Under the pieces are notes generated by a model. It saw only the letters and a program-made list of their open reading frames with translations. It did no database searches and was not told where the DNA came from. A DNA stretch of 39,030 bases from Cytophagales bacterium. Its GTDB lineage: Bacteria > Bacteroidota > Bacteroidia > Cytophagales > Thermoflexibacteraceae. How positions within the stretch are numbered: position 1 is the stretch's first letter; each line of letters begins with the position of its first letter. Below, in pieces: positions 29,943 to 33,215 of the stretch. The stretch is from assembly GCA_013298985.1 (NCBI GenBank), contig JAAFJS010000024.1, positions 1 through 39,030 of the forward strand, written 5' to 3'. The position numbers and the translations under genes were made by a program.

Positions 29943-30419
29943 TTATTTTAATATTTCCAAATCATATACAGTAACTTCAATATCTTTTGCTATCAATTCT
30001 GTAATGATAATTTCTTCTATTTTCTCCCATTTTCCTCCCGCCAATCCTGCACCCATTCTTGGCATGTGCACAGAAGCATTTTTATTTTTTGCGTATTCTG
30101 CTACTGTTTTTAATGCAATAGCAACTGCTTCATAGCGTATTGGTGGGATTCCATGAATGGATTTAATACCTTTTTGACCAATAATATTTGCAATGATTAT
30201 TTGTGATTCGACCTCTATAAATTGCACCTGCCCCAATTCAAAGTTTGTCTTTTCTGCAAACCATTCTTTATATTTCTTTTCTGGTGTTTTCCATTTTTTA
30301 GAAATTGCCAAGACAAAGCCTTTGCCCCACCCTCCAATATCATTACAAATATGTGTGATAATTTTATTCCCTTCCCCTATTGGGTTTGTTGCATCACCTG
30401 CTAAATAATTGATTTTCAA
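29943..30419 (-). CDS. Macro-domain protein (Appr-1''-p processing / ADP-ribose binding)
   Basis: A 158-residue single macro domain that binds or hydrolyses ADP-ribose derivatives. It shows MKINYLAGDATNPIGEGNKI (the GDAT adenosine-ribose motif), then ITHICNDIGGWGKGFVLAIS, whose N-D-x-G-G-W-G-K-G-F element matches the Poa1/TARG1-like branch, IIANIIGQKG, and the second loop VHMPRMGAGLAGGKWEKIEE. Length and order are normal. Enzymatic specificity (deacetylation, de-ADP-ribosylation or ADP-ribose 1''-phosphate hydrolysis) cannot be told apart here. It lies 62 bp downstream of three Uma2 genes on the same strand, so it may be the last gene of that transcript. No ADP-ribosyltransferase (such as DarT) lies next to it. 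Confidence 0.88.
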   Translation of the reverse strand: MKINYLAGDATNPIGEGNKIITHICNDIGGWGKGFVLAISKKWKTPEKKYKEWFAEKTNFELGQVQFIEVESQIIIANIIGQKGIKSIHGIPPIRYEAVAIALKTVAEYAKNKNASVHMPRMGAGLAGGKWEKIEEIIITELIAKDIEVTVYDLEILK

Positions 30420-30481: not shown

Positions 30482-31078
30482 CTAATCTGCAAAAACCTTT
30501 TCCAAATTCACTTCTAATTGGGGAAAAACAAAGGAAGTTGCAATATCCTCAGTATTAAATATTTGGTGAAGTTCATATTTTTGCTTGTCGTTCAGCACAA
30601 ATTTGAGTAAATTTTCTTCGTAAGGATACACCACCCAGTATTCCTGCACGCCACTTTCTTCATAAAGTTCATATTTGAGTTTCATCTCTTTTTTAGAATT
30701 TCCCAAAGAAAGAATCTCAATAATGAGGTCAGGCGCACCTATGCAACCCTTCTCATCTATTTTTTCTCTATCACAAATCACACACAAATCAGGCTGAACC
30801 ACTGTAAATACTTCTTTGTTAGCTTTTTGTGATTTTTTGCTATCATACAAACGTACATCAAAAGGCGCAGCATAAAGCCTACATTGATTGTCGCTAAAAA
30901 AATTGAAAATTATACCATGCAGGCGCGATGAAATACGCTGATGTTTCTCGCTTGGCGCGGGCGACATTTTAAAAATCTTACCTTTGATGAGTTCGACTCT
31001 CTCCTCAAACCGCCAGAGCAAGTAATCTGCATAAGAATAAACTCCGTTTAAGTCCAGTTCTGATATATCTTTGACCAT
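30482..31078 (-). CDS. Uma2-family PD-(D/E)XK nuclease-like protein, copy 1
   Basis: 198 residues, Uma2 (DUF820) family of the restriction-endonuclease-like superfamily. The start is MVKDISELDLNGVYSYADYL, then RVELIKGKIFKMSPAPSEKHQ, the strand QPDLCVICDREKI, APDLIIEILSLGNSKKEMKL and SGVQEYWVVYPYE. The putative catalytic residues are the Asp of QPDL, the Asp/Glu of PDLIIEIL and the Lys of EMKLK. The usual 'rDlrrK' Asp is replaced by Glu and the 'VDP' Asp by Tyr, so activity is open. It is the last of three tandem genes. Residues 70-198 are almost identical to the other copies, while residues 43-69 differ strongly (SEKHQRISSRLHGIIFNFFS, then DNQCRLYAAP). Confidence 0.88.
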   Translation of the reverse strand: MVKDISELDLNGVYSYADYLLWRFEERVELIKGKIFKMSPAPSEKHQRISSRLHGIIFNFFSDNQCRLYAAPFDVRLYDSKKSQKANKEVFTVVQPDLCVICDREKIDEKGCIGAPDLIIEILSLGNSKKEMKLKYELYEESGVQEYWVVYPYEENLLKFVLNDKQKYELHQIFNTEDIATSFVFPQLEVNLEKVFAD

Positions 31079-31107
31079 TTTCCTTGAAAAAATTTAAAAT
31101 CAATTCC

Positions 31108-31704
31108 TTATTCTGCAAAAACCTTTTCCAAATTCACTTCTAATTGGGGAAAAACAAAGGAAGTCGCAATATCCTCAGTATTAAATATTTGGTGAAGTTC
31201 ATATTTTTGCTTGTCGTTCAGCACAAATTTGAGTAAATTTTCTTCGTAAGGATACACCACCCAGTATTCCTGCACGCCACTTTCTTCATAAAGTTCATAT
31301 TTGAGTTTCATCTCTTTTTTAGAATTTCCCAAAGAAAGAATCTCAATAATGAGGTCAGGCGCACCTATGCAACCCTTCTCATCTATTTTTTCTCTATCAC
31401 AAATCACACACAAATCAGGCTGAACCACTGTAAATACTTCTTTGTTAGCTTTTTGTGATTTTTTACTGTCATATAAACGTACATCAAAAGGCGCAGAAAA
31501 AACATCACACGTTTTATTTTCTAAAAAATTAAAAAACGTTACGTGCAAACGCGATGAAATACGCTGATGTTTCGTATTTGGCGCGGGCGACATTTTGAAA
31601 ATCTTGCCTTTGATGAGTTCGACTCTCTCCTCAAACCGCCAGAGCAAGTAATCTGCATAAGTATAAACTCCGTTTAAATCCAGTTCTGATATATCTTTGA
31701 CCAT
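31108..31704 (-). CDS. Uma2-family PD-(D/E)XK nuclease-like protein, copy 2
   Basis: 198 residues, same architecture as the downstream copy. Start codons of copies 1 and 2 are exactly 626 bp apart, and the 29-bp spacer between genes is nearly the same as the next one (TCCTTGAAAAAATTTAAAAT). Outside the variable window the protein differs from copy 1 only at residue 15 (Thr for Ser) and the last residue (Glu for Asp). In the window it reads NTKHQRISSRLHVTFFNFLE, then NKTCDVFSAP. The catalytic strand region is identical to the others. Uma2 proteins have no firmly established role; a DNA- or RNA-cleaving activity is predicted from the fold. Confidence 0.88.
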   Translation of the reverse strand: MVKDISELDLNGVYTYADYLLWRFEERVELIKGKIFKMSPAPNTKHQRISSRLHVTFFNFLENKTCDVFSAPFDVRLYDSKKSQKANKEVFTVVQPDLCVICDREKIDEKGCIGAPDLIIEILSLGNSKKEMKLKYELYEESGVQEYWVVYPYEENLLKFVLNDKQKYELHQIFNTEDIATSFVFPQLEVNLEKVFAE

Positions 31705-31733
31705 TTTCCTTGAAAAAATTTAAAATCACTCAC

Positions 31734-32339
31734 TTACTCTGCAAAAACCTTTTCCAAATTCACTTCTAATTGGGGAAAAACAAAGGAAGTCGCAACGTCT
31801 TCCGTATTAAATATTTGGTGAAGTTCATATTTTTGCTTGTCATTCAGCACAAATTTGAGTAAATTTTCTTCGTAAGGATACACTACCCAGTATTCCTGCA
31901 CGCCACTTTCTTCATACAGTTCGTATTTGAGTTTCATCTCTTTTTTAGAATTTCCCAAAGAAAGAATCTCAATAATGAGGTCAGGCGCACCTATGCAACC
32001 CTTCTCATCTATTTTTTCTCTATCACAAATCACACATAAATCAGGCTGAACCACCGTAAACACCTCTTTATTAGCTTTTTGTGATTTTTTACTGTCATAC
32101 AAACGTACATCAAAAGGCGCAGAAAAAACATTACAAGTTTCTCCTTGGAAAAAATTAAAAAAAGTGCCACTTAATTGCATAGAAATACGCTGATGCTTCG
32201 TATTTGGCGCGGGCGACATTTTAAAAATCTTACCTTTGATGAGTTCGACTCTCTCCTCAAACCGCCAGAGCAAGTAATCTGCATACGTATAAACTCCGTT
32301 TAAATCCAGTTCTGATATATCTTTGATGTGAGTAGGCAT
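31734..32339 (-). CDS. Uma2-family PD-(D/E)XK nuclease-like protein, copy 3 (promoter-proximal)
   Basis: 201 residues. The start is put at MPTHIKDISELDLNGVYTYA because it aligns with MVKDISELD of the other copies; a longer frame starting 42 codons upstream would run into the intergenic promoter region. The variable window reads NTKHQRISMQLSGTFFNFFQ, then GETCNVFSAP. Elsewhere it differs from copy 2 by about one residue (Val for Ile in EDVATSF). Its stop codon is 626 bp from that of copy 2, which in turn is 626 bp from that of copy 1. Being first in the transcript and having a unique upstream sequence, it is probably the ancestral gene from which the other two were copied. Confidence 0.88.
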   Translation of the reverse strand: MPTHIKDISELDLNGVYTYADYLLWRFEERVELIKGKIFKMSPAPNTKHQRISMQLSGTFFNFFQGETCNVFSAPFDVRLYDSKKSQKANKEVFTVVQPDLCVICDREKIDEKGCIGAPDLIIEILSLGNSKKEMKLKYELYEESGVQEYWVVYPYEENLLKFVLNDKQKYELHQIFNTEDVATSFVFPQLEVNLEKVFAE

Positions 32340-32371
32340 AAAAAATAATCTTTTTAAAACCAAATAACTTA

Positions 32372-32379
32372 CAAATATA
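32372..32379 (-). promoter_or_regulatory. Candidate -7 element for the Uma2 genes
   Basis: TATATTTG on the minus strand, matching TAnnTTTG, 32 bp upstream of the copy-3 start. No good TTTG lies 19 nt further upstream, so the call is weak. Confidence 0.35.
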
Positions 32380-32466
32380 GAGAATAAATTAGTGAAATGA
32401 ATAGTGTTTTTACAAAAAAATGCCTTTCGTAGTTTTTCTATGCAAGACAAATAAAAAATTGGCAAT

Positions 32467-32484
32467 AACTTGTATATACAAGTT
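32467..32484. promoter_or_regulatory. Perfect palindromic operator for the GntR regulator
   Basis: AACTTGTATATACAAGTT is an 18-bp perfect palindrome. CTTGTATATACAAG-like sites are typical operators of the GntR/HutC subfamily, to which the adjacent regulator belongs. It is 20 bp upstream of the regulator start and overlaps the candidate -33 element. It is also 127 bp upstream of the divergent Uma2 genes. Confidence 0.8.
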
Positions 32485-32500
32485 GTGTTTTATAATTTTG
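32470..32500 (+). promoter_or_regulatory. Candidate promoter of the GntR-deoC unit
   Basis: TTG at 32470-32472, 20 nt, then TAATTTTG at 32493-32500 (TAnnTTTG). The -7 element ends only 4 nt before the ATG at 32505, so transcription would start at or within a few bases of the start codon. Confidence 0.55.
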
Positions 32501-32504
32501 GAAG

Positions 32505-33215
32505 ATGAATGAAAAATTCTTATACAAACAAGTTTATAAAGACCTGAAAAACAGTATTTTGAGCGGTCAGTACAAGACAGGTAGCAAGTTGCCATCAGAA
32601 AGTGAATTGTGCGAATGTTATCATACTACACGTGCTACCATTCGCCAAGCGTTTAGTGAACTGATAAAAGAAGGTTTTATTTACAAACAACATGGTAAGG
32701 GAACTTTTGTAAAATCAGAAATGCGTTCTCTGGGTTTACTTTCTTTCAAGGGCTTTTCCGAAGTGGTGGGGGAAGAACACCAAGCCAAGACTACAATCTT
32801 ACAAGTGCCTGTTTATAAGCAGTTTCCATCTGATTTTTTTTACAAACTTTCCGCAGAAGAAAAGGAGTTAGGGTGCATTTACTTTGCGCGTTTGCGATTC
32901 GCTGATGATGTACCTGTGATGTTAGAATATACCTATCTACCTAACAATGAATTATTTAAACCTTTTGACGAGCAAGATATAAAAGATTCGTTTTTCAAAA
33001 CCTTACACACTAAGTTTGAAGTAGAGATTACAGGCTTGGCGCAGTCTATCAGGGCTATAGAATGTGAGAAATCAGTAGCTAAAGCACTGAAAATGAAGCA
33101 TAAAAGCCCTGTACTTTATATTAATAGACGTTATGCCACTAACAAGGCTAATCTTCACATTTACAGCACTTTGTACTGCAATACTGATAAATATGCCATG
33201 AGCCATAATTTTTAG
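32505..33215 (+). CDS. GntR-family regulator, HutC subfamily (UTRA domain)
   Basis: A 236-residue transcription factor. The N-terminal winged helix (about 5-70) shows YKQVYKDLKNSILSGQYKTG, KLPSESELCECYHTTRATIR and the wing GFIYKQHGKGTFV. The C-terminal UTRA effector-binding domain (about 90-230) includes LGCIYFARLRFADDVPVMLE, AQSIRAIECEKSVAKALKMK and SPVLYINRRYATN. The start is firm because the family begins 10-15 residues before the first helix and there is no later Met. The effector is unknown; UTRA domains usually bind a small metabolite, often a sugar phosphate. The gene is 35 bp upstream of deoC on the same strand, so a deoxyribose- or other sugar-linked ligand is a reasonable guess. A perfect operator lies in its own promoter, which implies autoregulation. 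Confidence 0.93.
   Translation: MNEKFLYKQVYKDLKNSILSGQYKTGSKLPSESELCECYHTTRATIRQAFSELIKEGFIYKQHGKGTFVKSEMRSLGLLSFKGFSEVVGEEHQAKTTILQVPVYKQFPSDFFYKLSAEEKELGCIYFARLRFADDVPVMLEYTYLPNNELFKPFDEQDIKDSFFKTLHTKFEVEITGLAQSIRAIECEKSVAKALKMKHKSPVLYINRRYATNKANLHIYSTLYCNTDKYAMSHNF

Follow-up and report, generated by a model that had tools for sequence, protein, structure and literature searches.

Three tandem Uma2 genes in a Cytophagales contig are nearly identical except in one sharply bounded segment of 28 codons, and the same part of the protein is the most divergent in most of the tandem Uma2 arrays that were scanned. We consider it probable (about 70%) that these genes undergo concerted evolution in which gene conversion homogenizes the flanks, old segment types are exempt and retained, and each copy owes its specificity to the helix that the segment encodes. 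The window examined here is the whole 39,030-nucleotide stretch of this contig, and "segment" refers throughout to codons 43-70 of the genes.

The array and its divergent segment

The first-pass annotation described three tandem Uma2 genes that repeat with an exact 626-bp period. The open reading frames, the codon alignment and the Pfam profile agree with this description: the start-to-start distances are 626 and 626 bp, the intergenic gaps are about 29 bp, and all three copies score 104-107 bits against PF05685, for which the cut-off is 27 (Table 1). A small macro-domain-like gene flanks the array on one side, and a divergent GntR regulator followed by deoC lies on the other; the neighbors inspected were macro-domain-like, GntR, DeoC and peptidase genes. 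The gene at 29943-30419 that adjoins the array bears only a weak resemblance to the DarG antitoxin macro domain (PADLOC E = 1.6e-9) and scores far under the NCBIfam cut-off; Pfam gave no match for it at the threshold applied. The 6.1-Mb source genome (G000) has 42 Uma2 (PF05685) places, 41 of them over the cut-off, spread across many contigs.

Table 1. Uma2 copies in the array and their divergent segments.
Feature	Positions	Strand	Product or residues	Basis
Uma2 copy A	30482..31078	-	198 aa	ORF; PF05685 106.5 bits
Uma2 copy B	31108..31704	-	198 aa	ORF; PF05685 107.4 bits; model pLDDT 90.6
Uma2 copy C	31734..32339	-	starts MPTHIKDI..., N terminus slightly longer	ORF; PF05685 104.5 bits
Segment, copy A	30869..30952	-	codons 43-70: SEKHQRISSRLHGIIFNFFSDNQCRLYA	codon alignment
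Segment, copy B	31495..31578	-	codons 43-70: NTKHQRISSRLHVTFFNFLENKTCDVFS	codon alignment; modelled helix 44-61, strand 67-70
Segment, copy C	32121..32204	-	codons 43-70 (B numbering): NTKHQRISMQLSGTFFNFFQGETCNVFS	codon alignment

The three copies share 97-100% identity at residues 1-42 and 71-198 and 46-68% at residues 43-70. The sharply bounded variable stretch noticed earlier is therefore real, although its limits are codons 43-70 rather than 43-69 and its extent is partly variable. Within it the codon alignment has 14 amino-acid differences among 28 positions between copies A and B, 15/28 between A and C, and 9/28 between B and C. Only one to three replacements per pair are found among the 166 flank codons compared, and the remaining flank DNA changes are nearly all synonymous. 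The count of synonymous and nonsynonymous changes that had been proposed as a check finds both classes in excess inside the segment, with Fisher p = 5e-11 to 3e-19 for replacements and p = 0.01 to 2e-5 for synonymous changes. Between copies A and C, for instance, dS is 1.75 within the segment and 0.19 outside. Because synonymous changes are also in excess, the divergent island is more than an amino-acid effect; amino-acid change alone in recent duplicates would not make the synonymous sites of the segment older than the adjoining ones.

The contrast in dS and the skewed distribution of changes lead us to reject a simple recent triplication, which would be expected to place differences along the whole gene and not in an island. 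An assembly artifact is the other trivial explanation, and the source genome is indeed a 383-contig draft. Since the same architecture recurs in many other genomes, such an error in this contig is unlikely, and we give either of these explanations almost no weight.

Recurrence in other Uma2 arrays

Uma2 relatives were collected across some 960 genomes plus a set of species genomes and comprise 184 full-length genes at 135 loci, including 32 tandem arrays; many of the genomes are MAGs. One pair per array with an overall identity of 80-99.5% was then scanned without using the reported segment (26 arrays, which represent seven or more families). In 23 of these 26 arrays, the 28 codons that diverge most begin at codon 36-50, compared to about 9% expected by chance. 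The corresponding binomial p = 1.7e-21 is nominal, as arrays from related genomes are not fully independent. The best-scoring divergent stretch has median limits of codons 44-70 in 31 near-identical pairs that were selected for low segment identity. The three deviating arrays have identical segments (L090), a peak near the C terminus (L073), and a peak slightly upstream (L085).

Several arrays have features of their own. In L090, copies 1 and 2 have DNA-identical segments and 94% identical flanks, and copies 1 and 2 of L069 are a recent, almost identical duplicate pair. Between other copies (3/5 of L069, 2/3 of L070, and those of L042 and L073) identity is 97-100% over the first 42 residues and only about 50-77% in the C-terminal parts, as if the 5' part had been homogenized separately. 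A 597-aa frame in L088 that appeared to encode a fused double Uma2 protein (G074) was rejected, as it crosses an N-filled scaffold gap. This gap (G074:C54, 2450-4240 of L088) joins two array copies with different segments, a sign of copies hidden by assembly. Carriage of these genes by phages was also rejected, with one partial match among 50,697 phage records.

The pattern is more than a matter of the segment tolerating change better than the rest of the protein. Segment identity averages 53% in tandem pairs whose flanks are at least 90% identical, the flanks averaging about 95-97%, and residues 151-198 are 95% identical in tandem pairs. Between unrelated Uma2 proteins the two regions are equally variable, averaging 32% identity in the segment and 30% in residues 151-198. 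The segment is thus the part that array copies do not share, though other regions of the family vary freely too.

This comparison also bears on a mechanical explanation that requires no selection. Gene conversion tracts stop at heterology, so that a stretch that is already divergent could block strand exchange while conversion continues elsewhere in the gene, and the buried positions of the segment are constrained as they would be in any helix. If heterology alone were responsible, however, then the island need not occupy the same protein position in nearly all scanned arrays when residues 151-198, for example, are equally free to diverge, and an island is also present in a single-copy syntenic gene. 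We judge this explanation improbable as a full account, although retention of the segment could be partly mechanical because divergent islands resist conversion.

We claim the pattern only for the Bacteroidota subfamily marked by the HQ...C...APFDVR motif and for close relatives of this subfamily. The claim stops there because a small set of homologues from elsewhere, five on Nostoc plasmids and one pair from Methylobacter, showed no such effect.

Age and inheritance of the segment types

In close tandem pairs, segment dS ranges from about 0.8 to saturated and flank dS is mostly 0.07-0.5. Between species whose flanks are 92-99% identical, segments may be anything from identical to as divergent as those of paralogues. 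Even where flank pS reaches about 0.5-0.7, same-type segments of different species remain 89-100% identical. Old, discrete types exist side by side and can last through speciation. For example, the segments of copy 2 in genomes G012 and G006 are 96% identical, whereas the copies within each genome have segments that are 46% (G006) and 36% (G012) identical and flanks that are 98% and 93% identical. Copy 1 of G350 and copy 1 of G276 follow the same cross-genome pattern, with segments 93% identical.

Maximum-likelihood trees of the G006/G010/G012 and G350/G276 arrays disagree between the two parts of the gene. Flanks cluster by genome, and some segments cluster across genomes. AU tests on the flank data reject the segment tree in each set (p = 0.0003 and 8e-5), and those on the segment data reject the flank tree (p < 0.002). 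Outside the segment, paralogues of one genome are closer to each other than to their orthologues, and for some copies the reverse holds inside it. Such a conflict is the classic signature of a family that evolves in concert while one segment is exempt, and it establishes recombinational homogenization of the flanks for these two array sets. The array in the Cytophagales contig has probably been homogenized likewise, with gene conversion as the likely process.

Two readings had been offered at first: homogenization of the flanks by gene conversion with the segment kept different, and targeted diversification. Saturated segment dS over low flank dS and the mutual rejection of the trees favor the former. 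Targeted diversification supposes active mutation of the segment, as by a diversity-generating retroelement or by repeated exchange of cassettes from silent copies. It would account for the sharp boundaries, the saturated difference between copies, and the fact that almost every gene has its own segment (177 of the 184 are distinct). Yet same-type segments are conserved between species to the degree given above, which speaks against a retroelement target in particular, and synonymous sites have diverged too. The genome also yielded no convincing orphan cassette outside Uma2 genes: every match to the segment below E = 0.1 lies in a frame of Uma2 length, and matches beyond this value are weak. 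In 18 shared-type pairs, divergence per nucleotide averages 0.080 in the segment and 0.109 in the flanks and is lower in the segment in 13 of the 18; these pairs were picked for similar segments and are consequently biased, so that they support only an absence of hypermutation. The first-pass annotation had named segments that evolve no faster than their flanks in relatives as an outcome that would count against it. This outcome is seen in relatives and counts against hypermutation, but not against conversion with retention. Targeted diversification is accordingly very unlikely.

Single-copy loci present a related island. Genomes G010 and G006 share a 19-kb collinear block that is 93.7% identical where ungapped. 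Its single Uma2 gene is 96% identical in the flanks and 46% in the segment, which is the least similar of the 5,928 84-nt stretches in the block. Syntenic single-copy orthologues have flanks that are 96-97% identical and segments that are 46-50% identical. At these loci the segment data conflict with the flank tree only marginally (p about 0.04-0.06), and the segment tree is not rejected by the flank data. Their segments may differ because different members of an ancestral array were kept or because blocks were exchanged directly.

If exchange were the general rule, then an otherwise vertically inherited gene would receive its segment as a cassette from another Uma2 gene or strain, much like restriction specificity domains. 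The single-copy orthologues are compatible with such block replacement, as are loci L130 and L131, where segments are 96% identical over 83% identical flanks. On the other hand, differential loss from an ancestral array accounts for the same data. Among pairs with segments at least 85% identical, a single MAG pair (86% segment, 68% flank) has flanks that are less than 80% identical, and therefore there is no clear transfer of segments between unrelated Uma2 backgrounds. We regard block replacement as unlikely, although it is the most credible of the alternatives to conversion with retention.

No tandem homologue of the present array was found in two congeneric genomes (G001 and G002). Synteny of their Uma2 homologues with this array was rejected, as none of the neighbor genes tested occurs within the 11 kb taken. 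The GntR-DeoC pair is present in G001 with no Uma2 gene in the 1.5 kb upstream; the corresponding stretch of G002 is short. The closest congeneric homologue (L076, G002:C24 at about 32100-32690) is broken by stop codons, which suggests turnover of these genes.

The variable helix and its possible role

Mapping the segment onto the predicted structure of copy B, as had been proposed, places it in helix A and the start of the next strand, both modelled with pLDDT 96-98. The predicted model matches the restriction-endonuclease-like fold of solved Uma2 proteins, the closest being 6okh (Z = 25.1, rmsd 1.8 over 174), followed by 9y1l (Z = 24.5), 3ot2 (Z = 19.4) and 1wdj (Z = 19.2). Foldseek matches below the Uma2 group (DrdV, BpuSI, HsdR and NucC, with Z about 5-9) reflect the common fold only. 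The putative active-site residues H46, P96-D97, E121 and K135 (H-PD-EXX-K) are invariant in the alignments. The segment had been thought to sit just before the catalytic core, but it actually contains the invariant His46. This residue is the counterpart of H43 of Feder and Bujnicki, a conserved histidine that these authors predicted to bind metal or substrate (PMC551604).

Variation within the segment follows the helix. His46-Gln47 at the start of helix A is invariant in 184/184 genes, and positions 49, 53, 57 and 61 are almost always hydrophobic across the same set. The most variable helix positions are 51, 52, 54-56, 58 and 59, and entropy along the segment has a helical periodicity (p = 0.009). 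Variation falls on exposed positions, with the buried ones conserved. The exposed face has a mixed character, since variable positions 51, 54, 55 and 58 are often hydrophobic and the mean charge of the segment is +3.2, and it is compatible with a protein interface or a nucleic-acid contact alike.

The copies match the PADLOC PDC-S03 profile with E = 6e-56 over 183 residues (15-197). Judging from their fold and this candidate family, they are probably PD-(D/E)XK nucleases that act alone, and they possibly function in defense against phages or other foreign DNA. Open papers yielded no report of Uma2 nuclease activity and no published test of phage protection by PDC-S03. In earlier studies, the family has been suggested to be a selfish element (PMC551604) or a solo toxin whose paralogous genes form cassettes (PMC2701414).

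Concerted evolution with a protected module would make the array a small multigene family in which recombination, through gene conversion and the gain and loss of copies, holds the Uma2 bodies of one genome, including their catalytic scaffold, at near identity. Roughly 28 residues comprising helix A and the start of the next strand are left out of this homogenization. The exposed face of the helix, beside putative active-site residue His46, may set what each copy recognizes, whether a nucleic-acid target, a component of an invader, or a partner subunit. A change in the segment may consequently alter the choice of partner or target, as was first supposed. Conversions that erase a segment type would then be lost by selection, which would retain different segments. 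Segment dN/dS does not exceed 1, and with dS saturated this ratio cannot be used to argue for positive selection.

Recognition variants that exist in parallel would fit a role in defense. We tentatively propose, as an idea with less than even odds, that Uma2 arrays in Bacteroidota are repertoires of such variants, each pairing a catalytic body that gene conversion keeps uniform with an exchangeable helix under long-term balancing selection and having its own target, and that they make up a simple modular innate defense. Uma2 is a very abundant bacterial family that has no settled function. The recurrence of an exempt helix that is shared across species points experimenters to the residues that probably carry specificity, and the arrays supply natural pairs that differ almost only in this helix, which makes a long-open question accessible to chimera experiments.

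Among the closest parallels are other families in concerted evolution that have a protected variable recognition part, including MHC and hsdS specificity domains. The PDC-S03 family of PADLOC, with which the present copies share a profile match, is itself only a candidate for phage defense. With the Uma2 family as known before (COG4636/PF05685/DUF820; Feder and Bujnicki 2005, PMC551604; Makarova et al. 2009, PMC2701414), the present genes share the fold, the H-PD-EXX-K residues, a high copy number, and tandem paralogues. Homogenized flanks around one exempt helix, as seen in the present arrays, do not appear in the accessible parts of these two papers, and a literature search limited to open papers found no published description of this pattern. 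Variable-exon clusters such as those of UGT1 and the protocadherins (PMC1885805) belong with MHC and hsdS in the group of concerted families named above, in which common parts are homogenized, one recognition segment retains its diversity, and types are found across species as they are here. Unlike these clusters, MHC or hsdS, the Uma2 arrays consist of whole, short bacterial genes for putative nucleases, and only one helix, with a putative active-site residue at its start, makes up their variable part.
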